A DNA stretch of 48,416 nt from a virus, in the IMG/VR virus record IMGVR_UViG_3300035659_000027, positions 1-48,416 of that record; one strand, 5' to 3'. Shown one piece after another: positions 5,899-45,832 of this stretch. The translations under genes were made by a program, and so were the position numbers. The stretch's first letter is position 1. The number at the start of each line of letters is the position of its first letter. The notes under the pieces are model-generated. The model was not told the DNA's origin and ran no database searches. It saw only the letters and a program-made list of their open reading frames with translations.

Positions 5899-5902
5899 TT
5901 AA

Positions 5903-6160
5903 TCACACTTGAGCGGAGTTTGGATAATCGAAAATGTCAAGCGGCAGCGGCCGTCGAGGCTTCCCTTCGGTTTGGTCGGCTAGTACAACCGCAACCTTTA
6001 GCATAGCTCCGCAGCCGCCGCAGATGAATGTCCATCCCTTCTCGATGGAATCTGGGTAAATGGTGTACTCAGCCCCGATACCTATTTCATCTCGCAGGAC
6101 GTGGAAGCCGCATTCACAAAGTGATAACTTGCAGACCTTCGCTCTGACTCGTTGGCTCAT
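5903..6160 (-). CDS. Cys-rich small protein, probable zinc binder
   Basis: An 85-residue protein whose ATG overlaps the previous stop (ATGA). Cysteines at KLCK-like CKLSLCECGFHV and at ICGGCGAML form a plausible four-Cys zinc site. The sequence between them is strand-rich. It lies immediately upstream of the FtsK-like gene (4 nt gap). Function unknown. Confidence 0.6.
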   Translation of the reverse strand: MSQRVRAKVCKLSLCECGFHVLRDEIGIGAEYTIYPDSIEKGWTFICGGCGAMLKVAVVLADQTEGKPRRPLPLDIFDYPNSAQV

Positions 6161-6378
6161 CTCGCTGGACCCTCCCCCGGACTACTCACTCTTGGCACCA
6201 ACTCCCGGCCAAGTTCGTCCCGAGGCTTGATTATTGAGCAGACTGTACCGCAAACACGGCAGTCGACCACTTCCAGTGACATCGGCCTATCGGCGATGTG
6301 CATTACCAGCTTGCACCGTGGGCACTCGACTGCGCCGGTGAACACCCGCCACTCTGCTACTGCTATTTCACGAGCCAT
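6157..6378 (-). CDS. Zinc-ribbon mini-protein, 73 aa
   Basis: The start is chosen at ATG 6378, which follows GGAGGGG and gives MAREIAVAEW; the longer frame to 6531 only shadows the neighbouring gene. CPRCKLVM and CRVCGTVC are the two knuckles of a zinc ribbon. It overlaps the upstream gene's end by 16 bp and couples to the downstream gene as ATGA. No specific family recognised. Confidence 0.6.
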   Translation of the reverse strand: MAREIAVAEWRVFTGAVECPRCKLVMHIADRPMSLEVVDCRVCGTVCSIIKPRDELGRELVPRVSSPGEGPAR

Positions 6379-6617
6379 GGTTTGTCCCCTCCAAACAAAG
6401 TTGGCTGATTCGGCGTCGAAGACGCAAACTTGCGGCGCAGGGCGAAGGCGTCGGCCAGCCAATCCCGCAGCGCGGTGTAGGTGTGCCGCACACGATATGC
6501 GGAGCATATCTGGGCGCCGCAGCTTGGGCAAGTGAGGATATGGAAGTGAGCACGCTTGCCGCGTGTTTGGCGCTTTTTCGGGTTGGTGGTGCTTATTTGC
6601 AGCTTAGTCCACCTCAT
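6363..6617 (-). CDS. Zinc-ribbon protein, 84 aa
   Basis: Starts at ATG 6617 inside the last codons of the VWA gene (14-bp overlap). It begins MRWTKLQIST and is strongly basic for 25 residues. It then has a single CPSCGAQIC cluster followed by a helical region rich in Arg and aromatic residues (YTALRDWLADAFALRR). Possibly a nucleic-acid-binding adaptor. Unknown family. Confidence 0.55.
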   Translation of the reverse strand: MRWTKLQISTTNPKKRQTRGKRAHFHILTCPSCGAQICSAYRVRHTYTALRDWLADAFALRRKFASSTPNQPTLFGGDKPWLVK

Positions 6618-10779: not shown

Positions 10780-11073
10780 AAAACAGCTCTGGACAGATGT
10801 TCCTAGCGCAGCTACGCTGCACCACAAGCGAAGCTCCCCACCCGTGCACCGCACCAAAAAACTACGGAGGACTTAAAACTATTATTACCAAAAAAAAAAA
10901 AAATAAAAAAATTAGAAAAATAAAAGGGATTAGTTCTCCCCAACGAAGTTGCCGAATTGTCTATTTGGCGGGTTTCACCGGTGATTAGCTTTGTTGGCAA
11001 TTAGCTCCGCTGGCGTAGCTGAGCTATGCTTGCTTGCGTGCTTTGCGCAGGAACATCTGTTTAGAGCTGTTTT
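10780..11073. repeat. Long imperfect inverted repeat around AT-rich core (possible replication origin)
   Basis: Arm 10780-10810 and the reverse complement of 11044-11073 match at 28 of 31 positions: two substitutions and one single-base indel. They enclose 233 bp holding an A/T-only tract near 10,880-10,925. I see no convincing gene between 10,727 and 11,345. An easily melted tract inside a large palindrome, placed between divergent operons, is what a replication origin would look like; it could also be a mobile-element remnant. Confidence 0.5.
10870..10925. other. AT-rich tract (possible DNA-unwinding element)
   Basis: About 55 bp contain almost only A and T, including a run of 13 As, in an otherwise GC-rich genome. 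It lies in the loop of the 30-bp inverted repeat. On the leftward strand it is T-rich. A gene reading through it (poly-Lys) is not credible. Confidence 0.5.
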
Positions 11074-11119
11074 CTAGGACTCGCTATCTCGCAGGCGCAA
11101 TCTATCACACACACAGCAT

Positions 11120-11302
11120 CTACCGAAGGTAGGAGCGGGTGGCAGTGGCAGAGCCACCCGCTTGGGTTGGGCAGGGCTGCTTGCGCGGTGATACAGCGGC
11201 AGGGCGGCGGGGCTTTTGCGGAAGTAGCGGGGTTCCCACTCCGTGGATATCTCCTGCGGAGCACGGAGGAGGTTTCCCCGCCTAAGCTACCGCGTTCCCC
11301 AC
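11120..11302. repeat. Cluster of hairpins in non-coding DNA
   Basis: Three inverted repeats lie in a stretch without a convincing gene. One is CTACC/GGTAG (11120-11132). One is a perfect 10-bp stem (11134-11143 with 11153-11162). One is a long imperfect palindrome between about 11222 and 11302 (CCCCGC, CACGGAG and GTAGC elements). None is followed by a T tract, so they are not typical terminators. The open frames over them are low-complexity and lack ribosome sites. Confidence 0.45.
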
Positions 11303-11344
11303 CGCCTTGTCGCGGCATCAGGGCCGCAGCACCACGAGCTTTGC

Positions 11345-15364: not shown

Positions 15365-15619
15365 ATGAACGACACGGTCAGTAAGCACTTTGACAAACTG
15401 ATTCTAACCCTTTTATTCGTCCTGCTTTTGTTCGCGGTCCTTTATTTCAGTGGTGATGCCAACACCAAACAAGCACTCATTTCGATGTTTGCCAGTATCG
15501 GTGGTGCTGTTGTGGCCTTGATGACTGGGGGCCGTAATGTTCCGCGAAGTGGTGATAGCGGCCCACAGCCCGACGTGAAGAAGCCTAATGCCAACGATAG
15601 TCAAAGTAACCCTGTCTAG
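15365..15619 (+). CDS. Small membrane protein, holin-like
   Basis: An 84-residue protein with two predicted transmembrane segments, LILTLLFVLLLFAVLYF (about 13-29) and ALISMFASIGGAVVALM (about 37-53), then a polar C-terminal tail. Size and topology fit a class II holin, the pore former for lysis, but it is separated from the likely lysis gene (32,138) and small two-pass membrane proteins near terminases are often of unknown role. The tail overlaps the portal gene start. Confidence 0.5.
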   Translation: MNDTVSKHFDKLILTLLFVLLLFAVLYFSGDANTKQALISMFASIGGAVVALMTGGRNVPRSGDSGPQPDVKKPNANDSQSNPV

Positions 15620-22101: not shown

Positions 22102-22370
22102 TGGCAGAGTCACAGAACCACAACGGCATCTACAAGTACGTTATAGTCGCGGTGTTTTGGCTTCTAACTCTGTACATTGCCTGGACGCAGGCTTCCTCCC
22201 GCGTTGACAGCAAGGTAGAAGAAGCGTTCTCCCAGGTCGATGGCAGGGTGGAGAAGGCGTTTGAGATGCGGGCTGAGAGCAACACCGTCCGCACTGACAT
22301 GATAGAGAAGCGCCTTGAGCGGGTTGAAGCAAAGCTGGATAGGTTGCTGGAGCTAATGCCCAGGAAATGA
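22101..22370 (+). CDS. Single-pass membrane protein with coiled coil, holin/spanin-like
   Basis: An 89-residue protein: short N-terminus, transmembrane helix VIVAVFWLLTLYIAW (about 14-28), then a continuous amphipathic helix with heptads (VDSKVEEAFSQVDGRVEKAF, IEKRLERVEAKLDRLLELM). This is the layout of i-spanins and of some holins. No outer-membrane spanin partner with a lipobox is adjacent. It is tightly coupled to genes on both sides. Confidence 0.55.
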   Translation: MAESQNHNGIYKYVIVAVFWLLTLYIAWTQASSRVDSKVEEAFSQVDGRVEKAFEMRAESNTVRTDMIEKRLERVEAKLDRLLELMPRK

Positions 22371-23650
22371 AATTCTTGTTCCTTTCGGAAGCCGGCGCTG
22401 GTCTTGGCATCGCCCTTCGGGTCCTTGATGAGGGCAACGAAGTTGCCATGTGGATTCGCGGCCTGGACCACCAGTCTATCGGGGACGGGCTTGTACCGAA
22501 GGTGACAGACTGGAAGTTCTCCATTGACCCGGAGACCAACATCATCGCCGACGTTAATGGATTCGGCTGCATCATGGACGCGCTCCGTCTGGGCGGTTTT
22601 CCCACCGCTTGTGGTAACGTCTTAGCCGACCGTCTGGAAGCTGACAGGAAATTCGCTGACGAAGTGATGCACGACTGCGGCATCAAAACGCCCAAGTCGT
22701 GGTCATTTAAGGACTGGGACAAGGCCACTGACTTTGTAGATGAGTTTGAGGGCCGCTTGGTGTTTAAGCCTACCGGCGACCTTAGTGGAGTTGTTCCAAG
22801 CTATGTCTCGCTCGGCCGGGAGGACATGCTTGAGGCTCTGGACCACGCTGAGAGGAAGAGCTACGGCGAGCCGGAGTTTGAGTTGCAGGAGTTCCTTGAG
22901 GGTGTCGCTCTCTCAACTGAAGGTTGGTTCAATGGGCTTGATTTTCTTAAGCCCTTCAACCACACCATTGAGCGGAAGCAGTTGATGAATGGCGACCTGG
23001 GACCGTCTGGGGGATGTACCGGTAATGTCGTTTGGGCACGCCCAGACGATTGCCCGCTTCTTTGTGGCATGACCAAGTTCCTTGCTGGCCATCACTACAT
23101 CGGCCCAATTGATATTAACGCAATCGTGACCGAGGACGGCAAAGCCTATGGCCTTGAATTTACTCCTAGGTTCGGCTACGACGCAGCGCCAACCCTGTTT
23201 CTGGAGCTTTTCGACGGTGAGGTGGGGAAGTTCCTGTCTGACCTTGCCCGGGACCAGTCGAGCGTCGAGATGCCGCTGAGACCTGGGTTTGGGGCCGGCG
23301 TTCGAGTTACACTATCGCCTTGGCCGCACAAGGAAGGTAAGTCAGAGTCAGGGGTTACAATCCGCGGCTTGGATAAGGGCGACCTGAACCACTTTGACCC
23401 GTGTTCGCTTATGCTAGGCTCCCGGAAGGAACTGGTCAAGGCTGACGGCTCCAACGTTGTTGGGGTTGTTACAGGCCATGGCGATTCTGTCCGCTCCGCT
23501 TTCAACAAGGCGTACAAGATTGCGGATAAGCTGAAGGTTCCCGGCAAGCAATTCAGAACCGACCTCGCCGACGTAGTCCGGGACGACTTGGAGAAACTAG
23601 GGATTTCCGAAGAGGAGATTGCCAGTGGTGTACAGCAGAACGTGGGTTGA
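22367..23650 (+). CDS. ATP-grasp enzyme resembling PurD (GARS)
   Basis: A 427-residue protein with the order of PurD: an N-terminal Rossmann-like strand (MKFLFLSEAGAGLGIALRVL), then ATP-grasp elements RLVFKPTGDLSGVVPSYV, FELQEFLEGVALSTEGWFNG and, near 265, YGLEFTPRFGYDAAP. PurD has EFNxRFGDPE there; the metal-binding Asn is Thr here. PurD joins glycine to phosphoribosylamine using ATP. The altered motif and the place inside a structural operon suggest another ATP-dependent ligase, perhaps modifying a virion protein or peptide. Its start overlaps the upstream gene by 4 bp. Confidence 0.75.
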   Translation: MKFLFLSEAGAGLGIALRVLDEGNEVAMWIRGLDHQSIGDGLVPKVTDWKFSIDPETNIIADVNGFGCIMDALRLGGFPTACGNVLADRLEADRKFADEVMHDCGIKTPKSWSFKDWDKATDFVDEFEGRLVFKPTGDLSGVVPSYVSLGREDMLEALDHAERKSYGEPEFELQEFLEGVALSTEGWFNGLDFLKPFNHTIERKQLMNGDLGPSGGCTGNVVWARPDDCPLLCGMTKFLAGHHYIGPIDINAIVTEDGKAYGLEFTPRFGYDAAPTLFLELFDGEVGKFLSDLARDQSSVEMPLRPGFGAGVRVTLSPWPHKEGKSESGVTIRGLDKGDLNHFDPCSLMLGSRKELVKADGSNVVGVVTGHGDSVRSAFNKAYKIADKLKVPGKQFRTDLADVVRDDLEKLGISEEEIASGVQQNVG

Positions 23651-24299
23651 AAGCGATCCCCCAGATACCCAACTTGCTAGTTTGCTGGGGCAGGTCACTC
23701 GTTACCTTAAAACTGACATCCGTGAACGGTTGTTCCTGTCCGGGCCGATCGCCAGCAGGCCCACGCCGGAGGCGGTCTTCGTAGGGCTTACCTACATTGC
23801 TACCGATGAAGCCAAGGTGTATCGGTGGAACGGGACTGGGTGGGATGAGATTTCGCTGGTGGCTCCTACGACGCCGGATGGAGCGCGGGTGTACAACTCA
23901 GCACCGATTAACATCCCTAGCGGCGTAGATACCAAGCTCACTTTTGATACAGAACGGTACGACAATGGTGGGCTGCACGATCCAGGGGCCAACCCCGGCC
24001 GCCTCACCGCGCAGAAGGCCGGAACGTATGTAATTGTGGGCATGGTCGATTTTGCTGCGATTAGCGCTTTAGGGTTCCGCGGGTCTACTATTCTGCTCAA
24101 TGGAGGCACCTCCCTGGCGCGGTCGACCTGGACCCCGCGGCTTACAGCGAGTAATGCTGGAGTTGTCACCACCGTCTATCATTTGGCTGCGAATGACTAT
24201 GTGGAATTGCAGGTGTACCAAGACAGCGGCATAACGGTTAGTTGCATTGTGACCCCCAACCTCAGCCCAGAATTTGCTATGCAATGGTTGGGTTTGTAA
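23625..24299 (+). CDS. Fibre-tip-like protein with C1q/TNF-like C-terminal domain
   Basis: Start chosen at GTG 23625, 7 nt after GAGGAG. The 224 residues begin with an N-terminal helical part, then a short stalk (TPEAVFVGLTYIATDEAKVY), as in virion proteins that plug into a baseplate. The last 140 residues form a C1q-like jelly roll (GRLTAQKAGTYVIVGMVDFA, then VVTTVYHLAANDYVELQVYQ). Such trimeric domains bind receptors. It overlaps the ATP-grasp gene by 26 bp. No signal peptide. Family call is by pattern. Confidence 0.65.
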   Translation: MVYSRTWVESDPPDTQLASLLGQVTRYLKTDIRERLFLSGPIASRPTPEAVFVGLTYIATDEAKVYRWNGTGWDEISLVAPTTPDGARVYNSAPINIPSGVDTKLTFDTERYDNGGLHDPGANPGRLTAQKAGTYVIVGMVDFAAISALGFRGSTILLNGGTSLARSTWTPRLTASNAGVVTTVYHLAANDYVELQVYQDSGITVSCIVTPNLSPEFAMQWLGL

Positions 24300-24300
24300 T

Positions 24301-25890
24301 ATGCCAATTCTACCGCCAGGTCAACTTCGTCCAGACGAGCTTCCAGAACTGCCGATGAGCGGGCCTTTCGGCGGGATTCAATCGGAGCTCCCACAGCATG
24401 TCCTTGGCAACCTCGGCTTCTACGACTGCCGGAACATAATGTTCCGTTCTGCTAGGGCGGACGTTCGGCCAGGCTACACGCCACTAGCCAGCATCGGCGA
24501 GTCAATCCTAGCGATAGCTGATTTCTTTACGGTTGCCGGGAACAGGGTTCAATGCGTCATAACCCCAACAAAGATCAAAGTGTGGCAGTCCGGCACCAGA
24601 ACATGGTCGGATGTCACTGGCACGTTGGCCGGCGCGCCGCCGAGGCTCTTTGGCTGGACTGTCGTCAACCACAAGCTGCTGTTCTCGAATGGAATTGACA
24701 AAGTCCAGCTTTGGGACGGCATTACGGATACATTTGCTGCCGCAAGCGCGAACGCTGTTCCGGCCCGGTATCTAGCTGAGATTGGGACGCACCTTGTTGT
24801 CGCAGATACCATTGAAGGCGGCCGTTGCCACCAGCGTACACGCTGGACTCGTAGCGGCGATCCTACGGATTGGACATCATACTCCGCAGGAGTCCACGAT
24901 GAGCTTGGTGACCTCGGCCCAATAACTGGCCTGTGCCGAATCTCCCAGATTGGCTACCAGTTCCACTGGCGTGGCATTGTTCAAATTGTTCCGACTGGTG
25001 TTGCGCTGCGTCCGTTTGATTTCAGGGCGATTACCCAGAACAATCGAGGCAACACCGCACCGTATTCCCTGGCAGTCTTCGGCGAGCAGGCTGCGTTCTA
25101 TGTCGGCAAAGACGACATTTATATGTTCGACGGCACTAATAGCGTGCCCATAGGCAGCCGGGCGATGACGAGCGAGTATGGGATTGCTGGCGCCGCCCGC
25201 CTGGGCGCGAGGGCGCGGATATTTGCCGAGCTAAAAGTCGCTGACCTGGACAAGGTCTATGGCTTTGTTTCTTCCAGCATCTCCGGCAACGCCTTCAATG
25301 CCTACTGGCTGGTGATTCCCGGCGGTGGCTCCGTCTGGGTTTACAACATCGAGGAGGGAAGCTGGACACGCTTCGCCTACGATAAGGCGGTTGACTTGGT
25401 ATCTACGTTCTCCGACTTCCATGCTATCCGCATCTGCGACCTTGTCGGCACGATTGCCGACCAAAACTGGACTCCTGCCGGCCTGCCGGTCAACGGCGGG
25501 ATGGATTCGATGCTCGTTGGCTTCTCCGACGGAACCCCCGGTCTTGTCGATTTCACCGGTTATTCTGAGTCGCCCTGGTTCATCCAAAGCGGCCGTCTTG
25601 CGATGAACGACACTCGCCACGGCAAGACTGTCAAGAAGTTCCGGATTGTCTTCTACGACCTTGGGCCGTTGAGTTTCACTGTGAGGTTCCGCAACGAACG
25701 CGGCCAGGTGCATACGGAATCCGTTTCGTTTGCTGGGACTGGGTCTGGCGACCCAGTGGTACGCACCGTGCCAGTCAGCCTTTCCGGGATGTTCCTTGAT
25801 TGGCGTCTTGACGGCGACGCAAACTCGCCGTCAAGCTTCGCAGAATTCACCCCGGTCTACGATGTTTCCGGGGAGCATAGGAATGCTTGA
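24301..25890 (+). CDS. Large tail protein, 529 aa
   Basis: ATG 24301 follows the previous stop by 1 nt; the longer frame to 24274 is less likely. The protein starts MPILPPGQLRPDELPELPMS and shows repeated strand motifs with DGxx turns (VQLWDGITDTF, DIYMFDGTNSVPIG, AYWLVIPGGGSVWVYNIEEG) like a beta-propeller. Proteins of this type with a 'CRNIMFRSARADVRPGYTP' segment are common in podovirus tail regions. It is probably a tail-tube or nozzle component. The stop overlaps the next start (TGATG). Confidence 0.65.
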   Translation: MPILPPGQLRPDELPELPMSGPFGGIQSELPQHVLGNLGFYDCRNIMFRSARADVRPGYTPLASIGESILAIADFFTVAGNRVQCVITPTKIKVWQSGTRTWSDVTGTLAGAPPRLFGWTVVNHKLLFSNGIDKVQLWDGITDTFAAASANAVPARYLAEIGTHLVVADTIEGGRCHQRTRWTRSGDPTDWTSYSAGVHDELGDLGPITGLCRISQIGYQFHWRGIVQIVPTGVALRPFDFRAITQNNRGNTAPYSLAVFGEQAAFYVGKDDIYMFDGTNSVPIGSRAMTSEYGIAGAARLGARARIFAELKVADLDKVYGFVSSSISGNAFNAYWLVIPGGGSVWVYNIEEGSWTRFAYDKAVDLVSTFSDFHAIRICDLVGTIADQNWTPAGLPVNGGMDSMLVGFSDGTPGLVDFTGYSESPWFIQSGRLAMNDTRHGKTVKKFRIVFYDLGPLSFTVRFRNERGQVHTESVSFAGTGSGDPVVRTVPVSLSGMFLDWRLDGDANSPSSFAEFTPVYDVSGEHRNA

Positions 25891-26258
25891 TGCCTAGGGC
25901 GAAGCCAACGCTGGAGTTTCGGAAGCCGTCTTTGACGGAGTCGTGGCTTGGTGAGCTTTGCCGGATTATCCGACTGGGCTATGAACAACTTGTTGGCATT
26001 GTCAATGGGAGAATCTCTTTCGGAGATGGCACCAACTCGGATAACATTGACGGGGTTTGGGCTGATGTTACTACGCCGTTCGCGCCGGACACCAACTTCT
26101 CCGTAACCCATAACCTGGGAAGGCTGCCGGCTGGGTATTTCGTCGCGCGGAGGGAGATAGCCACAGAAATCTACGACGGCACAGACGCATGGACAGAAAC
26201 AACCATTTCGTTAAGGTCTACAATTGGCGAAGTTCCGCTGGTACTATTTATCTTTTAG
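25890..26258 (+). CDS. Small tail protein, 122 aa
   Basis: ATG 25890, coupled to the large tail gene. It has an N-terminal amphipathic helix ([19 protein letters not shown]), then beta strands with a [16 protein letters not shown] element. This element is typical of the C-terminal domain that caps many podovirus tail fibres and spikes. The last 70 bp overlap the signal peptide of the next gene in another frame. Confidence 0.6.
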
Positions 26259-27265
26259 CAGCGCTGCTCTTTGCCGCCAGCGCGGCTGCGCAGCCGCTAC
26301 ACCGCGGGCCTGCTGTTGCGTTCAATTTCAGCGGCGTGCCGACGGGTGTGTGTTTCCCGAACTACGTTGCTATTGACGATTCTAACGGAGACTTCTACAC
26401 CTGTGAGAAGCATGGCGAGGAGCCTGGTGTCTGGAAGAAGCAGGGCGCAGGCGGGCCACCTGGGCCTCAGGGTCCGAAGGGAGATACTGGCGATGTAGGA
26501 CCAGCAGGCCCGAAGGGCGACAAAGGTGATGTAGGGGATACCGGCCCGCAGGGGGTTAAGGGAGATACGGGAGATACCGGCGCCCAGGGCTTGCAGGGCA
26601 ACACCGGCCCACAAGGACCTCCTGGAAACGATGGTGCTGTCGGCCCCAAAGGCGATACGGGAGATACTGGTCCGCAGGGGGCAAAGGGTGATACTGGGGA
26701 TGTAGGACCGGCGGGAGCGAAAGGCGATACCGGCGATCAGGGACCACAAGGTATTCAAGGGCCGCAGGGCGACACTGGAGCTAAGGGTGATAAAGGAGAT
26801 ACAGGAGCGCAAGGCCCTCCAGGCCCAGGGCTTTCACCCGGTGCAGTCGTCCTTATCGTTTCGGGAACTTGCTCTGCTACTTTAGGGTCGGGATGGACGG
26901 AAGAGGTTTCACTCAACGGCAAGTTCCTCCTAGGAACCGTTGCAGCGAACTCCGACATCGGTGGAGCAGGTGGGACGAACAGTATCACTCCGCAAGGGAC
27001 TAATAGCACCACCACTACCGGCCCGACGGGTGCTGGGACGCCAGTGGGGGCTGTAAGCGCTATTGCAGGGACAGCAACGGCGGCGGTGAAGATCGGTACG
27101 AGTTCAAGCAACGCCGCGGCGCAGGCACATACGCATCCTGCACCGACGTTTACTGGCTCGGCCTTGCCGACGCACACGCATACCGTTCCGGCAGAGACTT
27201 TCACAGGCGAGCAGTTTGACAACCGTCCTGCATTTGTGAAAGTCATCTTTTGTAAGAAAACATAG
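26189..27265 (+). CDS. Collagen-like tail-fibre protein with signal peptide
   Basis: 358 residues. Residues 1-35 have a basic n-region and [17 protein letters not shown], ending in an AxA-type site, i.e. a Sec signal peptide. A globular part with CFPNY and CEKHGEE follows, then 42 uninterrupted Gly-X-Y triplets (about 92-217) rich in GDT, GPQ and GPK: a collagen triple helix. The C-terminus has repeated HxH motifs (AHTHP, THTHT) and [16 protein letters not shown], like metal-stabilised receptor-binding tips of long tail fibres. A virion fibre with an export signal is unexpected. Confidence 0.75.
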
Positions 27266-27317
27266 GTGTTTACAACATGAACATCAACGCCGCATCATAC
27301 CTAGGAGGTATACAATA

Positions 27318-27596
27318 ATGGCAATCCAAGCAACCGGCCGAGTAATTGCGGTCCCCGCAGCCGAAGCCGGTACAACGCCAATCTTCACCCACATGGTCAA
27401 GGTCGAACACATTGAGTTTGTCGGCTACACTGTCGAGACCCACGTTTGTGCTGTCCAGGACCGGCAGGGCCGTAAAGTTTGGGACGGCAACGGCAAGTCC
27501 GACTTGTCCGCCGAGCGGAGCGGCAAAATTGGCTGGGTTGATGGGTTGGTTGTTCCAACCTGCGATTCTGGCGAAGTGAGGATTTACTTGCTATGA
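27318..27596 (+). CDS. Hypothetical late protein, 92 aa
   Basis: ATG 27318 after AGGAGG. Beta-rich (VIAVPAAEAGTTPIFTHMVK, VEHIEFVGYTVETHVCAVQD), with no signal peptide, unlike its neighbours. It sits between two exported fibre-like genes and its stop overlaps the next start as ATGA. It might be a fibre chaperone or a small baseplate protein. Unassigned. Confidence 0.55.
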   Translation: MAIQATGRVIAVPAAEAGTTPIFTHMVKVEHIEFVGYTVETHVCAVQDRQGRKVWDGNGKSDLSAERSGKIGWVDGLVVPTCDSGEVRIYLL

Positions 27597-28732
27597 AAAA
27601 GCTGGCGCTCCTAGCTACGCTGCTGTTGGCCGCCCTGCTCCCATTGCAGGCGCAGACTGTTGTGTACTCTGGGTTGAGGTCTTACGCCGCCTCTGCCATC
27701 GGCGCCGACACTGGCGTCCGCCTAATCGGCTCCGCCATCTCCTGGCACATACTTACCTGGACAAAGTCCGGGACGGTGACTGTCTGTTCGGTACAGGTTG
27801 ACTCCTCAGCAGACAACATAACGTGGGGTGATGGAGATATTATCGCCGTTCAGGACTGTTCCTCGAATGGGGCTACTATCCCATACAACTTCACCGTGAA
27901 CTACGTTCGCATCCATTTCGTGACGACGTTCACCGGTACAGGCTCCGTGACCGCAGTGTGGACGGGGTATATTAGCAGGCCAGGAGGTGCCGTCGGGCCG
28001 GCTACGGCCAATCAAGTTGCCTATTTCACTGGGACCGATACTGTGGGTGGCGATACAGGGCTGACCTACGACCCTGCGACTGGGCTTACTATCGGAGGCG
28101 CAGGCTTGGGCTACATGACCCCCGCAGCCGACCCCACCGGTGGTGATCTGGTCGCTGGCAAATTCTGGTTCAACAACACGGCCCCAGCCGCCGTGCTTAG
28201 CAAGTTTTATGATGGGACGGCGAAGCAGACCAACCTTACAAGTCCGGCTAGTCTCTTTGGCAGTTCTCCCGCAGCCCTACTGGTGACCAAGGCAGCGGGT
28301 GCGGACCCGACCACAGATAACTGCGTAAAGTGGCTAGCAGGTGGCGGAGTAGGCGATGCGGGTGCAGCCTGCGGCATAGGCATCAAGAGCATCTGGATAG
28401 ACACGCCCGTGGTTGCAGACTCGGGGCGAATTCAGTTCATGTTTCCTGTGGCCGTTACAATCACCCGCGTCGCTTGCTCGACGAAACTGGCGACCTCGAC
28501 GGTGGACCTAAACATGGAGGAACGTGCGGCAGCCACACCGGATACAGCAGGTACAGACGTGCTCAGCGCGGAATTGGTCTGCGACACCAACCAGCAGACC
28601 TCGTGCGCCTCAGGTTGCGACGTGAACACAATCACAAACGGCGGGATCGCTGCTCGCGTTCCGGTGGCGATTACGCCCTCGGCCATCGCCAATGCGCCGA
28701 CAGATTTGAGGATCTTCATTGAGTACTACTAG
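27593..28732 (+). CDS. Exported fibre-like protein, 379 aa
   Basis: The N-terminus MKKLALLATLLLAALLPLQA is a textbook Sec signal peptide with cleavage near residue 20. The mature part is Thr/Ser/Gly-rich and strand-rich (WHILTWTKSGTVTVCSVQVD, VRIHFVTTFTGTGSVTAVWT), with a central 'GLTYDPATGLTIGGAGLGYM' repeat typical of phage fibre shafts and a compact Cys-containing tip (CDTNQQTSCASGCDV). Cysteine pairs would be sensible for an exported protein. Start overlaps the previous stop (ATGA). Exact family unknown. Confidence 0.65.
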   Translation: MKKLALLATLLLAALLPLQAQTVVYSGLRSYAASAIGADTGVRLIGSAISWHILTWTKSGTVTVCSVQVDSSADNITWGDGDIIAVQDCSSNGATIPYNFTVNYVRIHFVTTFTGTGSVTAVWTGYISRPGGAVGPATANQVAYFTGTDTVGGDTGLTYDPATGLTIGGAGLGYMTPAADPTGGDLVAGKFWFNNTAPAAVLSKFYDGTAKQTNLTSPASLFGSSPAALLVTKAAGADPTTDNCVKWLAGGGVGDAGAACGIGIKSIWIDTPVVADSGRIQFMFPVAVTITRVACSTKLATSTVDLNMEERAAATPDTAGTDVLSAELVCDTNQQTSCASGCDVNTITNGGIAARVPVAITPSAIANAPTDLRIFIEYY

Positions 28733-28739
28733 GAGACCG

Positions 28740-29447
28740 ATGCGAAAACTAGTCCTCGTTATATGGTTCATCGTGCTGGCCGCAATTCCAAGTTATGCCA
28801 CGGTGACCCTCGTCCAAATCAAGCGTACAGCGACAAATGACACCCACGTTCATGCGATATTCGCTTCGAATGTCACCGCCAACAATCTAATCATCGCGTC
28901 CATCTACCATGCTCAAGCTAGTAATCCCGGCGGAACCGTAAGTGATTCTCAGGGCAATACATATACCTCTGTCATCCAGACCAATTATTCCACAGATCGC
29001 CGCATTGAGACTTTCTGGGCCATTGCCGCAAATTCGGCAGCGAATACGGTGACCTTCACTTGGGCGTCTGGGAGTGGAACGCTGCTCATGGAGGCTTCAG
29101 AGTGGTCGGGTGCGGCCACCTCCTCAGTCGCAGATGTATTCGCTGGAGCCAGTGCCAGTTCGGGCACGGACTTGGCAAGCGGCAACACCGGGAACACCGC
29201 TCAGGCAAATGAGTTGGTCTACGGTTTCGGGTATCTAGGTGGGGCGGCGACTGGCACCGAAGGCGCGACTTTTACCCTTGCCAATACCGGGAACAACGTC
29301 ATCGCCGAATACAAAAATGTAACTGCGATTGGGGTTCAGGCAGCCGACGCGACCCAAGGCGCAAGTGGCGTCTGGCTGATGCAGGTGGTTACATTCAAGG
29401 ACGGTGTGGCGGGCGGTGCCAAGAAACGGGTGGTGGTAACCGAATGA
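28740..29447 (+). CDS. Exported beta-sandwich protein, 235 aa
   Basis: Start set at ATG 28740, 4 nt after AGGAG, giving MRKLVLVIWFIVLAAIPSYA, a signal peptide with a site after SYA. The mature protein is a single jelly-roll-like domain (HAIFASNVTANNLIIASIYH, NTYTSVIQTNYSTDRRIETF, VWLMQVVTFKDG). This pattern also occurs in secreted Acidobacteriota proteins of unknown function. It is coupled to the next gene (ATGA). Confidence 0.6.
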   Translation: MRKLVLVIWFIVLAAIPSYATVTLVQIKRTATNDTHVHAIFASNVTANNLIIASIYHAQASNPGGTVSDSQGNTYTSVIQTNYSTDRRIETFWAIAANSAANTVTFTWASGSGTLLMEASEWSGAATSSVADVFAGASASSGTDLASGNTGNTAQANELVYGFGYLGGAATGTEGATFTLANTGNNVIAEYKNVTAIGVQAADATQGASGVWLMQVVTFKDGVAGGAKKRVVVTE

Positions 29448-31765
29448 CTCGAATCCTCAAAAGCGCGTTGATTTTATTATTTGCTGCCATTCCTGCCCCC
29501 GCCCAGGTCACTATTGTCTGGCAGGATAATTTGGAGAGTGGGGCCTTTGTCGGTTGGACAGCATCCGATTTTCGGACGACGGTTTCAAATGAGCTGGCGC
29601 ACACTGGAACCTACGCTTCGCGTAGCTATTATACCCGCTGCGGTTACTCGGCACCATATTTTCCCTCAGTGACGAATGTTGCGGGAACAGGGGCACCTGC
29701 AGAGAGCGGCATATACCGCAGGGTATCCTATGTCAATGCTGCGGGCGAGACCCTAGCGGGGTCATCGGACTCAGGCTCTCATGCGGCAAACTATGTGTTT
29801 CGGTTTGCCAGTCCTGCCGCTTACTCGAACGGTGTCTTGCCCGCGACTGGATACAACGTCTACCTGGGCACGACTGCCGCTGGGGTTACGCTTCAGAACG
29901 CTGCCGGGGTGGGATGTGCAGCCGCTAATGCTGATGGCTCCTGCCAGATCGGAACAATCTGGACTGAGCCGATCACCGGCATGGTGGCGGGTGCAGCAAA
30001 ACCCACTATCAACAAGGCCATTGCTCCCGCCGCGCCTTCACTGAGCCAGACAGCAGGCGGAGCGCTCGGCGCTCGGACCTACTATGTGGTTGTTACCGGC
30101 AAGACGCTGGCCCCCGGAGAGACATGGTATTCTGCCGAATCTACCCTGGCGATTGATGCCAACAAACTCCTCAAGGTCACCTCCCCTGCAGCGTCCACTG
30201 GTGATGTTACGCAGTACAACGTCTATGCCTCGACGGTTTCAGGCACGGAAACAAAGCAAACCACTTCGAGTGTCAACCTCGGCACGGATTGGACGGAGCC
30301 AGGAACGGGATTGATTGCAGGGTCCGCCTTGCCCACCTCAGTTACCGGCTGCGGCAGCACATCTGACAGTCGTGATAAGTATGCTCAGCGTGTACAATCT
30401 CCCGGACTGGAGCAGTTCGTCTTCCGTGGCTACGTCTACATTAAATCGTCCACCACTTTCGGTGCGGCAGTTGAAAGCATCCAGCGCAAACTCCTCTATC
30501 TGAAAGACCCGGCAGGCGATACGGGCGATGGCCACCCGTGTTCAGATCATTGCTGGGCGCCAGTTATTACCTCTTTTGATGCCCTGAACGGTGGCATACA
30601 CCGGATGGGATTGCAATTCATACTCGGATACATGGCCAACGACAGGTATTGGGGCACAGGAAGTTCGTTCCCAATCGCGTGGATGGATTATGATATTCAC
30701 TACTACCTTGAGATTCAGGTTGTGGCGAACACTTCTGGAGCGATTGACCCAGCCAATTACGCTAGTGGCGGGACATACAACGACGGCTACGTAAAGATTT
30801 GGCTGGCGAAAACCGGTGACGCTCCCGTTCTCATCCTGAATACGCTCACGGATGCTTCCTCCTCCGGTCATACAGGAGGCTGGGATATACGTCTCGGCTA
30901 CCCAACCGGCATCACAAAGTTCAACATTGGGGAGCAGGTCAACCGCGTCCAGTGGGCACCGATGGACGAGTTACGGTATTGGGACGACGTGGTTCTAGCC
31001 AGCGGAACTTGTGCCTCTCCACCCTGCATTGGGCCATTGGGCGCAGGGCCAGAAGCAAGCCCAACTCCAGTGTCGGTCAACTTCAACGACACCAATGTCG
31101 GCAACACCAGTGCCGATTCGCCCAGGATAATCACGCTTACGAACAACGGTGGGGCCACGCTGAAGATTTCCGACAGCTCGATTACTGGTGCACACGCAGC
31201 CGATTTCGCCGTTGACTCGACCACCTGCGGGTCAACCTTGGCGGTGGACGACTCCTGCACCGTGAGCGTGAGTTTCACGCCGCTGGCTTTGGGCCTGCAC
31301 ACCGCCGCCGTAACTTTCACTGACGATGCCAGTGACAGTCCGCAATCTGTCTCCTTGTCGGGAACTGGAACGGGGGCACCGCCCGCGCCAGCAGTCAGTC
31401 TCACGGAATCCAGCCTTGGGTTCGGCGCGTTGACGGTGGGCAGCGCAAGTGACACACAGCAGATCACGCTCTACAACTCCGGCGATGCGACGCTGAATAT
31501 CACGAGCATTGTGGCCTCGACGACTTCCGCGCCGACCAGTCCGGGAGATTTCGCTATCGACTCGACCACCTGTGGGGCGACCCTAGCACCAGCAGCGAGT
31601 TGCACGGTGAATGTCTCGTTCACCCCAGTGGCGGGCGGGAGTCGCACCGGGCGAATCAGATTCACGACCGACGCGGCAAGTTCCCCCGATGATGTTTCAA
31701 CTAGCGGCACGGGGCAGATTGTCTTGACCCTGCGGGGTGGGACGTTTCGGGGGTTGACGAAGTAA
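29444..31765 (+). CDS. Exported giant fibre-like protein with ASPM/SPD-2/Hydin domains
   Basis: 773 residues. MTRILKSALILLFAAIPAPA is a Sec signal peptide. The next 180 residues have fibronectin-like repeats (AGETLAGSSDSG, APGETWYSAESTL). The middle (about 320-510) is lectin/glycan-binding-like. The C-terminal 230 residues hold two tandem Ig-like domains of the ASPM/SPD-2/Hydin ('choice-of-anchor D') type: VNFNDTNVGNTSADSPRIIT ... STTCGSTLAVDDSCTVSVSF, and a second copy with STTCGATLAPAASCTVNVSF. Such repeats are notably abundant in Acidobacteriota surface proteins. It suggests host-derived adhesion domains on an exported or virion protein. Confidence 0.7.
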   Translation: MTRILKSALILLFAAIPAPAQVTIVWQDNLESGAFVGWTASDFRTTVSNELAHTGTYASRSYYTRCGYSAPYFPSVTNVAGTGAPAESGIYRRVSYVNAAGETLAGSSDSGSHAANYVFRFASPAAYSNGVLPATGYNVYLGTTAAGVTLQNAAGVGCAAANADGSCQIGTIWTEPITGMVAGAAKPTINKAIAPAAPSLSQTAGGALGARTYYVVVTGKTLAPGETWYSAESTLAIDANKLLKVTSPAASTGDVTQYNVYASTVSGTETKQTTSSVNLGTDWTEPGTGLIAGSALPTSVTGCGSTSDSRDKYAQRVQSPGLEQFVFRGYVYIKSSTTFGAAVESIQRKLLYLKDPAGDTGDGHPCSDHCWAPVITSFDALNGGIHRMGLQFILGYMANDRYWGTGSSFPIAWMDYDIHYYLEIQVVANTSGAIDPANYASGGTYNDGYVKIWLAKTGDAPVLILNTLTDASSSGHTGGWDIRLGYPTGITKFNIGEQVNRVQWAPMDELRYWDDVVLASGTCASPPCIGPLGAGPEASPTPVSVNFNDTNVGNTSADSPRIITLTNNGGATLKISDSSITGAHAADFAVDSTTCGSTLAVDDSCTVSVSFTPLALGLHTAAVTFTDDASDSPQSVSLSGTGTGAPPAPAVSLTESSLGFGALTVGSASDTQQITLYNSGDATLNITSIVASTTSAPTSPGDFAIDSTTCGATLAPAASCTVNVSFTPVAGGSRTGRIRFTTDAASSPDDVSTSGTGQIVLTLRGGTFRGLTK

Positions 31766-31784
31766 AAAAATCAAAGGAGGATGT

Positions 31785-32135
31785 ATGTCGTTACTAAGTT
31801 TTCTAGGAAAGGTTGGAAAGGGAATCTGGAAAGGGATTGCCAAAGCTCGTCCTGTAGCCGTCGCTGTCGGCGCGGTAATCCCAGGGCCGGACCCGTTCGA
31901 GGCAGTCGGGAACCTGCTTGCTACGGCTGAAGCCGTCGGAGAGATCGTTAGGCAGCAAGGCGGCAGCAAACTCGACAAGTTGGTTCTGATTCTGCCTCAG
32001 GTGAAGGAAGTCATCAGGAACTCGGAGTTCTTTGCTAAGCAGGAACTTGCCGATGAGGCGCTGTTTGAGCAGGGGGCCATTGAGCTTATCGGCGCCGAGG
32101 TGAAAATCTACAAGGCTTTTAAGGAGCCGAAGTAG
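31785..32135 (+). CDS. Hypothetical late protein, 116 aa
   Basis: ATG 31785 after AAAGGAGG. The N-terminus MSLLSFLGKVGKGIWKGIAK is an amphipathic, membrane-active-looking helix; the remainder is helical (VGNLLATAEAVGEIVRQQGG, LIGAEVKIYKAFKEP). It is adjacent to the DUF5675 gene, so a lysis-related role (holin or antiholin) is possible. Similar proteins in other phages are unannotated, as far as I recall. Confidence 0.55.
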   Translation: MSLLSFLGKVGKGIWKGIAKARPVAVAVGAVIPGPDPFEAVGNLLATAEAVGEIVRQQGGSKLDKLVLILPQVKEVIRNSEFFAKQELADEALFEQGAIELIGAEVKIYKAFKEPK

Positions 32136-32137
32136 CC

Positions 32138-32581
32138 ATGAAGCTGGACTTGGTGCGTGAGCAAATAACGCCGAAAAGCTCCGCTGGGCGTCTTTTCATT
32201 GATGGTGTCTTCGAGTGCTACACCCTCGAAGATACCGTCCGGGAGGTTCCTGGCAAGCCCGTCTCGGAGTGGAAGATACCGAAGGTCACGGCTATTCCTA
32301 CCGGGACCTACAGGGTCGACATTACTCCGTCCGCTCGGTACAAGCGGGACATGCCGATAGTGCTGGATGTTCCAGGCTTCACCGGCATCCGTATCCACTC
32401 TGGGAACACCGATGCGGATACCGAAGGTTGTATCCTTGTCGGTGCTTACCGGGAGAGCGCGGATGAGATACGGGGTTCCCGAGCAGCGTTTGGCTGGCTG
32501 TTTGAGAAACTGCTCGCTGCCAAGGCACGGGCGGAGGAGATTTGGATTGCTGTAACGATTGCGCTGGAGGCTCACGGATGA
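32138..32581 (+). CDS. DUF5675 family protein, probable lysis enzyme
   Basis: A 147-residue protein with the DUF5675 signature: an N-terminal SSAGRLFIDGVFECYTLEDT, then IPTGTYRVDIT, then IRIHSGNTDADTEGCILVG, ending in a helix. DUF5675 proteins are common late phage proteins; the conserved H and C in RIHSGN...GCILVG resemble an L,D-transpeptidase/peptidoglycan-enzyme core, so an endolysin-type role is likely though not proven. It overlaps the following tail-spike start as ATGA. It has no signal peptide. Confidence 0.75.
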   Translation: MKLDLVREQITPKSSAGRLFIDGVFECYTLEDTVREVPGKPVSEWKIPKVTAIPTGTYRVDITPSARYKRDMPIVLDVPGFTGIRIHSGNTDADTEGCILVGAYRESADEIRGSRAAFGWLFEKLLAAKARAEEIWIAVTIALEAHG

Positions 32582-34671
32582 GGAAAAAACTTCTGCTTTT
32601 TGCGGCTTTTCTGCTACTGCCAGCGGCGCTCTTCGCCACTGACTCTGCCCACTACTTCGATGTTGCGTTTTCCCCTTCGGGGAAGCCAATCGCTGGAGCT
32701 TCCATCCGCGTTTGTACAGAGCCGGCTACAACGACGCCGTGTACGCCGTTGGCAACAATCTACTCCGACTACGCGCTCACTACACCGCTGGCCAATCCAT
32801 TTCTGTCAAGCTCCACCGGCAACTACGAATTCTACGCTGTTTCCAGCGAGGTCGCCATCGAAGTTTCGTTCAGCGGCTACACCACGGTAATAAGGCATGT
32901 CGCGCTGCGTTCCCTAAGTACGCCCGTCACGCCGGGCGCTGTAGCTGGGGGGTTATACCCTTCGGTCGATGCTGCCTACGACTTGGGTACTTTGGTTCCC
33001 TTAAGACGCTGGCTGAACTTCTATGCGGTGGCTGGTAACTTCACCACTGCAAACATCGCCGGAGACCTAGCCGTTGTTGGAGATGCGACTGTATCCTCGC
33101 TCAATAAAGTCTGTAAGGCCGACGGAAAAGGCGGCGCAAATGCAGGGGAGAAGATTCAGGCTTGCCACGACGCACTACCAATCACAGGCGGTACAATAGA
33201 TGCGCGTGGACTCACAGATGCTCAGAGTGCCGCCGCTCAAATCAATATCACTAAGCCGAACATAACCCTGGAGCTTTCACCAACCACAGTCCTGACTCTT
33301 GCTTCTGGGGTTGGTTCGACTTCTGGAATGTACGTCACTTGGAACAACGTGTCCGGCCCAGCAAACAATTTCCATTTGCTGTGCAACGGGGCAACGATTA
33401 AAGCGACCCGCGCCCTGGAAAGTGTGGCGTTTGACGAATACTATCTCGTCCGCGTGACTGCCCTGAATATCCAACACGTTGACGGTTTCGTCTCAGATAC
33501 CTGCAACTACGAACTGACGGTGACGGGCGCTCTGGCGACCGCCGCACAGATGGGAGGTATCAAGCTCGAATCCACGGCTACTACGCGCTTCGTTAAGAAT
33601 TGGAGCATCCGCCACAACAAGTTTAACACGCAGGCGCCGGACATTGGCATAACCCACAGGTGGTATGGCGCAGAGGCCAGCCCGGCATCTATGGTGGCAA
33701 ACACGCGGGTTTTCTTCGACGGCAAGTTCGAGTTTAATGAGTGCTTGGGTGACGGAAGGTGCTTGCAGGTATCAGAAGGCAGAAACATCAGTTGGATCGG
33801 CAACCAGGCCAGGAACCCGTCTCAAGGCAATCAGTACGGCGGCGTTCAATTCCGCGCCATCGGAGTCGACAACGCCGTGTTCACCGGGAACTCTTGCTTG
33901 GTAGATACCGGGGACAGCGGGGCCGCTTGCATCTACATCGGTGGGAACGCCACTTTTGCCAATGATGAATCTAAAGGCTTCTCCATCACCGGGAACGTGG
34001 CCAAATACGACACCGTTCAGCTTACCAGCGATACCTATGGGGTCAATATCCTTGGGGCGCGAGACGGTACGATCAGCGGCAACACGTTCGTAAACACCCA
34101 GGCTGGCGCAGGCGGGGCCTCCGACGGCATCAAGGTACAAGCCGCCACAGCCCTCGTAAACAAGAACATTAACATCTCCAGCAACCGCATTGTTGGCTTC
34201 CTGGGGTACGAGATTCTGGTGAGCGATACAACCCCACCGGAACATTTGACTGCCCAAGGGAACCATCTCGGCGACTCCGCGGCTGGCGGTGCAAACGACT
34301 TTGGCGGCGCAGGAATTGCCAATCTGAAACGGTATGGCAACTACTCCGAGGCGGCAGGGACCTGGACTCCAATCAACACCGTCACCTTCTCCGCCACGCC
34401 GACTTTCGATGCCAGTCTCGGCAACACGCAGAAGATCACGCTGACGGACAATGTGACCAGCTCCACGCTCTCGAATGCCACGGCAGGGCAGCAGATTGAT
34501 TTCCTCATCTGTCAGGACGGCACCGGCAGCCGGACGTTCGTGTGGCCCACCAACGTGCTGGGTGGGATGACTATCGGGTCCACGCTTTCTAAGTGCAGCG
34601 CACAGAGTTTCCGCTATGACGGGACCCTGACCAATGCCTACGCGCTCAGCGCGGGCGTAACGAATATGTGA
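32578..34671 (+). CDS. Exported beta-helix tail spike
   Basis: The start is ATG 32578, overlapping the DUF5675 stop; 697 residues. MRKKLLLFAAFLLLPAALFA is a signal peptide. After a domain with FSPSGKPIAGASIRVCTEPA (a fibre-head-like element) comes a long right-handed beta-helix (about 215-600), with short repeated strands such as GFVSDTCNYELTVTGA and ISWIGNQARNPSQGN. Beta-helix spikes bind or cut host polysaccharide. The C-terminus repeats ITLTDNVTSSTLSNATAGQQ and LICQDGTGSRTFVWPTNV, a trimer-stabilising tip. The signal peptide is unusual for a spike. Confidence 0.75.
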   Translation: MRKKLLLFAAFLLLPAALFATDSAHYFDVAFSPSGKPIAGASIRVCTEPATTTPCTPLATIYSDYALTTPLANPFLSSSTGNYEFYAVSSEVAIEVSFSGYTTVIRHVALRSLSTPVTPGAVAGGLYPSVDAAYDLGTLVPLRRWLNFYAVAGNFTTANIAGDLAVVGDATVSSLNKVCKADGKGGANAGEKIQACHDALPITGGTIDARGLTDAQSAAAQINITKPNITLELSPTTVLTLASGVGSTSGMYVTWNNVSGPANNFHLLCNGATIKATRALESVAFDEYYLVRVTALNIQHVDGFVSDTCNYELTVTGALATAAQMGGIKLESTATTRFVKNWSIRHNKFNTQAPDIGITHRWYGAEASPASMVANTRVFFDGKFEFNECLGDGRCLQVSEGRNISWIGNQARNPSQGNQYGGVQFRAIGVDNAVFTGNSCLVDTGDSGAACIYIGGNATFANDESKGFSITGNVAKYDTVQLTSDTYGVNILGARDGTISGNTFVNTQAGAGGASDGIKVQAATALVNKNINISSNRIVGFLGYEILVSDTTPPEHLTAQGNHLGDSAAGGANDFGGAGIANLKRYGNYSEAAGTWTPINTVTFSATPTFDASLGNTQKITLTDNVTSSTLSNATAGQQIDFLICQDGTGSRTFVWPTNVLGGMTIGSTLSKCSAQSFRYDGTLTNAYALSAGVTNM

Positions 34672-34678
34672 GGTACAA

Positions 34679-35422
34679 ATGGCTATTGTAGTTGGAGCCG
34701 TCGTAACAACACCAACCATCGGTTCCCTAGCCGATGAAGTCATTGCAAGGGTTGAAAACAGAGTTTCCGACAAGACACGCGCCGAGATTTGGCTGCGCGA
34801 CGCCCTGCTGGAGATTTCTGCTAACCCGGACTTCCGGAACGAGTTTGTGGAGCTTGAGGAGAATGGACCGGACTGCGTCCTAACAATCGGCCTAGCTGAG
34901 TACGACGAGGCTTTATTCGTCAACACCGGCGATGTGAACCTTGGTTTCCTGAACTTCCGCTTGTGGCTTGACCCGCCAACAAACAGTCGCTGGCGCAAGC
35001 TGGAATCTCGCTCGTACCAGTATATTGACAAAAGCTCAAAGCAGCCCTCAACTCCGTCTGTCTGGTACAGGTTCAAGGGAACCATCGGGTTCGACCCTCC
35101 TCCAGACAAGACGTATCAGGTTCGGTCGAGGTATTACCTCCAGCATCCAATTGATGATACGCTGGTTGGCGTGACGCAGATTTTGCTTCCAAGGGACTGG
35201 CTCGAAGTCCTGGTCTTGAGCGCCGCTGAACGCGGGTTCATGGAACTGCTGGAGTTTGAGAAGGCGACAACGATTCACATGCTTTTGCACGGCGACCCGA
35301 AGCACCCAACAAGGTTGGGCTTGCTCGCGGGGCGTATTAAGAAACGGGAACGCGAAGATTGGCGTCATTCCAGGGCGCTAAAGCCTGTTAAACGGGCGTA
35401 CACGCTCGCAGGGAGGTATTGA
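34679..35422 (+). CDS. Head-to-tail adaptor / tail tubular protein (gp11-like)
   Basis: A 247-residue protein. Residues 10-60 fit podovirus adaptor helices (SLADEVIARVENRVSDKTRA, then EIWLRDALLEISANPDFRNE). A beta-barrel middle follows (LGFLNFRLWLDPP, WYRFKGTIGFDPPPDKTYQV), then a C-terminal helix with Arg/Lys. Tail tubular protein A of T7-like phages and gp4/gp11-type adaptors connect the portal to the tail nozzle. The identification is by pattern and by position after the spike gene, so moderate. Confidence 0.65.
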   Translation: MAIVVGAVVTTPTIGSLADEVIARVENRVSDKTRAEIWLRDALLEISANPDFRNEFVELEENGPDCVLTIGLAEYDEALFVNTGDVNLGFLNFRLWLDPPTNSRWRKLESRSYQYIDKSSKQPSTPSVWYRFKGTIGFDPPPDKTYQVRSRYYLQHPIDDTLVGVTQILLPRDWLEVLVLSAAERGFMELLEFEKATTIHMLLHGDPKHPTRLGLLAGRIKKREREDWRHSRALKPVKRAYTLAGRY

Positions 35423-44586: not shown

Positions 44587-45720
44587 CTAAGGCTTTGGAA
44601 AATTGAGTTCCTCCAGTTCTTTCAGAAACACCTCATAGGTCACTGCTGCATCCTTGGCATTGTATTTCATCAACTTACTCTTTCCGTCTTTTGGTGTCCA
44701 CCGCCTCCCTTCGTCTTTCCAGAAGGGTTCGCGGGTAAACTGCATCGCCAGGAACTCCAGCTTATGCGGAAGCTCCGGCCACAGGACGTGATGCGCTACC
44801 ATTGTGTCATCTACCAGCCCGGTGTTCACACGGAAGCCCAGCGTCTCCAGCCAATGGCTATCGAAGCCAAGGTAGTTCTGCCCAATTTGGTTATTATTGC
44901 GGAAGATTCTGTCAAGCAACCTCCACAGCTTCGCTCCATGCTCCCCCTCATAATCCCCAAACCCAATACTCATAGCTACGCTGGGGCTTGTGGCGAGAGC
45001 CACGGTGTATGGAAGCCTCCGAAATAACATTTCGATATCCACCGACACCCGTGTTTTCTTTTCGGCGATTTCGTTCAAGAACGCAAACGCATCATCGAAC
45101 GTTGGTTCGATGATAAGCTGGCGCTCGGGCAAGGGTTGGAGCTTGCCGTTGGCGAGGAAGTAGTTTAGTTCTTCCCGGACTTTCCGGAGGACGAAGATGG
45201 AGATGTCCCGTTCGGACCACTCGCGGAGCACAAAGGCTGGATGAGAAATAGGAATAACAAAATGCTGATGCCCAAGCCTGCTACAAGTGAGGAGGCTTCC
45301 ACGCCACTTAGTAATCTGTGGGCCAGCTCGGCCGCAAGTAGCAGGGCCGCCAAGAAGGCCAAGAGCAGTAGCACCAGCAGCAATAATGAGCGTTGGTCTT
45401 GTTTCATTGAGTTCCTCCCAAAGTTGGTCCTCGTAGGCTTCAAGTGGAATCCCTAGCCCCGGCAGCTTCGCTAGGTCATTGTCCGGCGGCCGACACTTGT
45501 AGCAATTGGTAAACCAGCAGTCGGTCAAGCCAGCTTCGCTGAGCATCCGGTCTTGCTCTTGGCCCGATGGGCCGGTGAATGGGAATCCAAGTCTTTCCTC
45601 GACCTCACCCGGAGCTTCGCCGACTACGCAGACCAGACTGTGGGTATTGCCCCGCGTCCCGACGTACCGGAGGTTCCGCTCCTCGCAGAGCTTCTTTAAT
45701 CTCTCCGTAGCTGCGCCCAA
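44587..45720 (-). CDS. UDG-like domain fused to 3'-5' exonuclease (partner of the split polymerase)
   Basis: Start chosen at TTG 45720, with GGGGG 5 nt upstream; a longer GTG start at 45789 overlaps another gene's frame. Residues about 30-190 match family 4 uracil-DNA glycosylase: GEAPGEVEERLGFPFTGPSG, NCYKCRPPDN and SHPAFVLR. Cysteines for the iron-sulphur cluster are incomplete. Residues 220-377 are a DnaQ/PolA proofreading domain with ExoI VSVDIEM, ExoII NYLGFDSHWL (preceded by NQIGQ) and ExoIII YNAKDAAVTYEVF, all catalytic acids present. Together with the next gene this gives a UDG-exonuclease-polymerase chain, as in SPO1-type polymerases, but broken in two. Confidence 0.75.
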   Translation of the reverse strand: MGAATERLKKLCEERNLRYVGTRGNTHSLVCVVGEAPGEVEERLGFPFTGPSGQEQDRMLSEAGLTDCWFTNCYKCRPPDNDLAKLPGLGIPLEAYEDQLWEELNETRPTLIIAAGATALGLLGGPATCGRAGPQITKWRGSLLTCSRLGHQHFVIPISHPAFVLREWSERDISIFVLRKVREELNYFLANGKLQPLPERQLIIEPTFDDAFAFLNEIAEKKTRVSVDIEMLFRRLPYTVALATSPSVAMSIGFGDYEGEHGAKLWRLLDRIFRNNNQIGQNYLGFDSHWLETLGFRVNTGLVDDTMVAHHVLWPELPHKLEFLAMQFTREPFWKDEGRRWTPKDGKSKLMKYNAKDAAVTYEVFLKELEELNFPKP

Positions 45721-45832
45721 ATAAAACCCCCAGTATCTCGTTGATAAGCTCTTCGGCCTTGAAGTCGAGGTTGGGGCCCTGGAGTTCACCCGCTATCCGC
45801 CGTACATCCTCGAGTTTGTGGTGTGGAATCAT
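45605..45832 (-). CDS. Small coupled protein, 75 aa, overlapping the UDG gene
   Basis: ATG 45832 overlaps the methyltransferase stop as ATGA and begins MIPHHKLEDVRRIAGELQGP. The first 45 residues look like a real alternating helix (FKAEELINEILGVLFG), while the C-terminal part overlaps the start of the UDG gene in another frame and is Arg/Gly-rich. The coupling supports translation of at least the first part. Function unknown. Confidence 0.5.
   Translation of the reverse strand: MIPHHKLEDVRRIAGELQGPNLDFKAEELINEILGVLFGRSYGEIKEALRGAEPPVRRDAGQYPQSGLRSRRSSG

Follow-up and report, generated by a model that had tools for sequence, protein, structure and literature searches.

The sequence comparisons reported here point to an assembly route in which the receptor-binding proteins of a tailed phage are made as Sec precursors, oxidised in the periplasm and docked onto the particle at or after lysis, a reading that we consider quite likely. 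On a broader scale, it seems reasonably probable that widespread tailed soil phages, probably of Acidobacteriota, build their particle in two compartments and join the parts at lysis. Standard teaching has tailed phages assemble wholly in the cytoplasm. The virion proteins of filamentous phages pass Sec or the inner membrane and are assembled in the inner membrane; the phages described here would resemble them in sending virion proteins via Sec, and differ from them in being tailed, with a terminase and a portal. We found no report of tail fibres or spikes bearing signal peptides (SPs), or of such an assembly route for tailed phages, in an open-access full-text library.

Signal peptides in the fibre block of the window

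The window, meaning the whole stretch of DNA that was analysed, is an IMG/VR virus record of 48,416 bp in which 62 genes were called; the gene calls are home-made, and the hosts of metagenomic contigs are assigned by inference. Family searches placed the large terminase at 13,540, an SU10-type portal at 15,588 and the capsid gene at 19,470, and a head-closure/stabilisation-like protein is encoded at 24,301. Judged by this gene set, the phage is therefore tailed and probably podovirus-like. Between the capsid and tail genes, the protein at 22367-23650 resembles PurD/ATP-grasp enzymes (GARS_A, E=5.5e-9) and is possibly a ligase modifying a virion protein or peptide; a similar N-terminus is found at the equivalent place in most relatives. 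At 44587-45789, a single gene combines a uracil-DNA glycosylase superfamily domain with a 3'-5' exonuclease domain and adjoins a separate DNA polymerase A gene.

Signal peptides were called with a home-made rule that scores the charge of the n-region, an uncharged hydrophobic core and the -3/-1 site, using a cut-off score of at least 7.5. For calibration, 170 annotated genes of E. coli K-12 were scored; at 7.5 the rule passed 21/27 Sec proteins, 6/40 inner-membrane proteins and 3/96 'cytosolic' proteins. Among the last three, yhhH and ymdA seem to be genuinely exported. Exactly five of the 62 window genes were positive and all five lie in an eight-gene fibre block, a placement with a chance probability of 8.7e-6; none of the remaining 57 genes passed. 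The first-pass annotation had named these five genes as starting with SPs, and had described the beta-helix, C1q-like and propeller-like proteins just upstream as lacking them; under the calibrated rule both statements hold. Its premise that tail fibres and spikes normally carry no SP was borne out by the control phages P22, T7 and phiGT1, in whose tail and structural genes no SP was found, and a remark on phage DGR targets in one passage of the literature agrees (PMC6199706).

All genes of the region are on the plus strand. The upstream border is formed by the SP-less head-closure/stabilisation-like virion protein (24301..25890, phrog_3287), which is followed by a small conserved virion-module protein of 122 aa, also SP-less (25890..26258). 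The first SP-bearing gene (26189..27265, score 9.09) encodes a collagen-like tail fibre of 358 aa with matches to PF01391 (E=6.6e-17) and PHROG 6320 (E=3.8e-38), reflecting Gly-X-Y repeats in a tail-fibre gene. Its cleavage site (AAA↓QP) lies about 34 residues after the called start; this start has no Shine-Dalgarno sequence and the gene overlaps the preceding one by 70 nt, so the exact start is uncertain. A diverged homologue of this fibre (in contig L020) has a different, ordinary SP. A small SP-less protein of 92 aa (27318..27596) then precedes the fibre at 27593..28732 (score 7.69, site LQA↓QT, SP MKKLALLATLLLAALLPLQA↓QT), which combines a jelly-roll-like N-domain (family B) with a variable distal part and has 8 Cys. 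Next in order are a putatively secreted protein of 235 aa without Cys (28740..29447, score 9.13, site SYA↓TV, SP MRKLVLVIWFIVLAAIPSYA↓TV) and a fibre of 773 aa with 12 Cys and ASH/HYDIN-type Ig-like repeats at its C-terminus (29444..31765, score 9.60, site APA↓QV, SP MTRILKSALILLFAAIPAPA↓QV).

Two SP-less proteins, one small (116 aa, 31785..32135) and one of the DUF5675 family (phrog_1501, 32138..32581), separate these from the tailspike (32578..34671, score 8.80, site LFA↓TD, SP MRKKLLLFAAFLLLPAALFA↓TD). The spike has 697 aa and 12 Cys and is laid out as SP, head-binding-like domain (family C), swappable middle and conserved C-terminal knob. All five cleavage sites are of A-x-A type, and clear Shine-Dalgarno sequences were seen at two of the five starts (AGGAG at 28,740 and GGAGG at 32,578). 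The downstream border is a conserved SP-less tail-module protein of 247 aa (34679..35422), gp4-like by position, for which a family search gave no match.

Virion likeness and the proposed assembly route

AF2 gave a model of the domain that follows the SP in the 32,578 spike (pLDDT 84.9). The top three Foldseek matches in the PDB were chains of 9vyg and 7eeq, with probability 1.00 and E of only 0.02-0.04; these entries are the tail complex (tail spike) of cyanophage Pan3 and the head-binding domain of the Pam1 tailspike. The N-domains of the P22 and Sf6 tailspikes came lower in the list (E up to 0.7), and a profile search with the same domain found the same families weakly (E 0.05-0.12), so that a head-binding fold is supported but not proven. 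Homologues with the same motif in cultured phages are the Arya tail spike, the GJ44 tail fibre and the P12026 tail protein, all of which begin directly at the domain and have neither an SP nor the conserved Cys pair; a phiGT1 protein is similar to these. Furthermore, the C-terminal knob of the spike matches proteins of other phages. For the jelly-roll-like family B domain, phage cement proteins ranked top with low TM-scores, and families B and D gave no clear virion homologue.

The 32,578 spike is like the P22/Sf6/Pam1/Pan3-type podovirus tailspikes in its domain order (head-binding domain, beta-helix, C-terminal part), its place in the tail module, its probable head-binding-like fold at the mature N-terminus and its swappable distal part. 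It differs from them in adding a conserved Cys pair (VC...PC) and in having an SP, whereas the P22 tailspike has none and is synthesised in the cytoplasm. Similarly, the 26,189 fibre shares Gly-X-Y repeats and fibre-gene position with collagen-like phage tail fibres (PHROG 6320, 819, 5073) but has an SP and four Cys in its mature part.

Three contigs (L002, L003 and L004) represent nearly identical phage, with head-closure proteins 99-100% identical. Here the 27,593 fibre keeps its SP and N-domain and has its distal part replaced, giving proteins of 375 aa (L002), 877 aa (L003) and 394 aa (L004). In L004 the middle of the 32,578 spike is swapped, with SP, N-domain and C-terminal knob kept, and the 29,444 homologue has an equally clear SP of different sequence (MRLLFAILLFCSTAFG). 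The 28,740 gene is absent from both L003 and L004. A kept N-domain with an exchanged distal part is, as read from these sequences, the classical pattern of receptor-binding proteins, and homology suggests that the SP-bearing fibres and spikes are receptor-binding proteins located in the virion. The 877-aa variant (L003 7376-10009) includes a module that, judged by eye, reads as a calcineurin-like phosphoesterase (GDIV...GNHDY), and may display an enzyme instead of a plain tip.

A different explanation is that these proteins are exported without becoming part of the virion, and act on the infected cell as secreted adhesins, depolymerases or receptor blockers serving superinfection exclusion or progeny release. 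Export and oxidation, shown by the sequence statistics given below, suit this explanation, as does the metallophosphatase-like module of the L003 variant, which is not a plain fibre tip. There is also a precedent, in that lambda Lom is described in one part of the literature as an SP-bearing outer-membrane protein encoded among tail genes (PMC12309495). Lom and similar exported phage morons share with the present proteins an SP and a place among tail genes; Lom, however, is an outer-membrane barrel, not a fibre that carries a domain for binding the virion. Against a non-virion role stand the resemblance of the spike N-domain to tailspike head-binding domains, the fit to virion fibres of conserved N-domains bearing exchanged tips, of collagen repeats and of a phage-shared knob, and the lack of a lipobox or, one borderline case apart, of a C-terminal anchor. 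Moreover, in the cultured phage Tunturi 2 (see below) the large fibre/lyase-like genes all have SPs and few alternative receptor-binding candidates are left. We hence regard a non-virion role, Lom-like or other, as unlikely. The first-pass annotation had suggested exported adhesins; the export stands, and decoration of the host or a block to superinfection is possible, but a receptor-binding role in the virion is favoured over such a purpose because of the head-binding-like domain, the domain swapping and the gene position.

According to the virion route that we prefer, the tailspike and fibres would be synthesised as Sec precursors and exported, and signal peptidase would remove the SP, leaving the mature N-domain as the new N-terminus. 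The mature proteins would fold oxidatively, with disulfide bonds, in the periplasm, and fibre trimers would wait there during cytoplasmic filling and closure of the head. SPs are lacking on capsid, portal and terminase, so particle and spikes would be in separate compartments until lysis and docking would, by this logic, have to be late. Particle and spikes would meet once lysis breaches the envelope, and the mature N-domain would then dock on the tail or head. Late docking is made plausible by P22, whose spikes are able to attach to heads in vitro. What such phages would gain is a spike stabilised by disulfides for use in soil; surface receptors could, as a side effect, be trimmed or blocked by the exported spikes, which would then have a dual role.

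If this is true, a particle can acquire its receptor-binding proteins as late as lysis or afterwards, the sturdy spikes of soil phages are explained, and free spikes could already work on the surface of the host ahead of lysis. The combination of an SP with an even number of mature Cys would be a simple genomic marker for receptor-binding proteins now annotated as hypothetical, and laboratory expression of these spikes would need an oxidising compartment.

Cysteine parity of the mature proteins

Even Cys numbers in exported proteins are an accepted indicator of disulfide pairing (PMC7678975). We counted Cys in clustered, non-redundant SP proteins that contain Cys and have a mature part of at least 200 aa, and in SP-less proteins from the same contigs. 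The mature count was even in 52/53 SP proteins as against 193/395 SP-less proteins (binomial p 6e-15, Fisher 6e-14), and Cys content was 2.0% in the mature SP proteins versus 1.1%. An earlier count on fewer genomes had given 24/25 even, and in contigs outside that first count 23/24 full-length family members were even. The spacing of consecutive Cys showed no difference between SP and SP-less proteins (27 versus 28), so the informative measures are parity and density only. The odd exceptions are a spike variant in L168 (7 Cys) and a family B protein in L188 (5 Cys). The former (L168 12129-14474) is a recombinant of the 32,578 spike and the sole odd member among the 53 clusters; its odd Cys is possibly unpaired or inter-chain.

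The strongest test draws on SPs that themselves contain an odd number of Cys (n=20). In these proteins the mature count was even in 20/20 and the precursor count in 0/20, a pattern that requires the SP to be cut off and the remainder to be oxidised. Collectively, these statistics show the SP proteins to be exported, their SPs (on this indirect evidence) to be cleaved and their mature Cys to be paired outside the cytoplasm; the oxidising compartment in which they fold would be the periplasm of a diderm host. Anchoring as lipoproteins or in the membrane was ruled out, since 0/66 SP clusters had a lipobox (Cys at mature +1) and no SP cluster had a hydrophobic C-terminal anchor apart from the one borderline case.

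Besides export, the first-pass annotation had offered a second reading, in which N-termini of host secreted proteins were reused as uncleaved hydrophobic anchors and the fibres were assembled in the cytoplasm. Export is strongly supported, and the second reading has become very improbable. A virion socket might in principle accept a hydrophobic N-terminus, and the particle itself is invisible to all the statistics used; however, a reducing cytoplasm gives no reason for even Cys counts, parity tracks the mature part and never the precursor, and A-x-A-type sites are kept while the remainder of the SP diverges. Host-derived uncleaved anchors were rejected on the SP-cysteine test.

Spread among relatives and the cultured Tunturi phages

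A search of viral contigs with a terminase alignment gave 80 loci, whose identities range between 100% and about 22%. The contigs of 25 of these loci and the record MW202554 were examined piecewise, and the N-terminal domain families B, C and D were collected by iterated profiles. An SP preceded the domain in nearly all of 15 distinct family B members, in 7/7 of family C and in about 12/14 of family D, some of the latter judged by eye given the strictness of the rule; the two family D members without a visible SP are in L020 and L115. The SP sequences in front of the three families share little, and A-x-A-type sites are kept. A separate family B scan yielded 27 loci on contigs all outside the earlier set, with an SP reading in 22/22 confident matches whose N-terminus was present. 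Comparison with related phages thus upholds the initial call, diverged homologous N-domains being almost always preceded by SPs. That the hydrophobic N-termini arose by chance or from wrong gene starts has next to no probability: the rule is home-made and the 26,189 start has no Shine-Dalgarno sequence, but miscalled starts and chance hydrophobicity were ruled out by the count of 0/57 among the other window genes and by the recurrence of SP-type N-termini before homologous domains in dozens of contigs.

In closer relatives the SP genes lie mostly between the head-closure gene and the 34,679 homologue, and in G007 and G018 some lie outside this block. The trait is shared by MW202554, a distant record that originates in a spring metagenome. 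Family B had no relative in the cultured-phage collection; the alignment of family D varied too much to be used in a collection scan.

The Tunturi phages are cultured Acidobacteriota phages, and the main text describing them is silent on signal peptides and mass spectrometry (PMC11924767). Tunturi 2 (PP885685), a podovirus of Tunturiibacter psychrotolerans, bears SPs on gp12, gp13, gp14, gp16 and gp17, with gp13 scoring 7.42, just below the 7.5 cut-off. These genes are annotated partly as tail fibre, pectin lyase and virion structural protein, and their mature parts contain 20 (gp12), 10 (gp13), 20 (gp14) and 34 Cys (gp17), with one in the small gp16. Every large fibre/lyase-like gene of this phage has an SP. 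The siphovirus Tunturi 4 has SPs on gp113 and gp114 (8 and 20 Cys), and none was found in the structural genes of Tunturi 3. Tunturi 1/2 and Tunturi 4 are like the window phage in having large, SP-bearing, Cys-rich fibre/pectin-lyase/structural genes in the tail module, and differ from it in genome type.

Given the trait in Tunturi 2 and 4, the host of the window phage is likely to be an Acidobacteriota member too. Bacterial genomes were scanned for related prophages with the terminase and with the family B domain; neither scan found one, so this host is still a deduction. Cultures exist of Tunturi 2, Tunturi 4 and their hosts, which makes the idea directly testable.

Tunturi 2 also has lipoprotein-type SPs on gp79 (L155 8070-9269), gp72 (11036-11329) and gp43 (23673-24056); one of these proteins is annotated as a tail protein, and they are candidates for superinfection exclusion. 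Two Cys-rich proteins were seen in other contigs. A phage contig encodes an SP protein of 2,762 aa (L018 203-8491, the same as L150 6295-14583, minus strand) that has 76 Cys in its mature part and contains repeats resembling the choice-of-anchor-D type, and contig G026 (in L121) encodes at 5438-6388 an SP-less protein of 316 aa with 62 Cys in CSDC/CYDC-type repeats.
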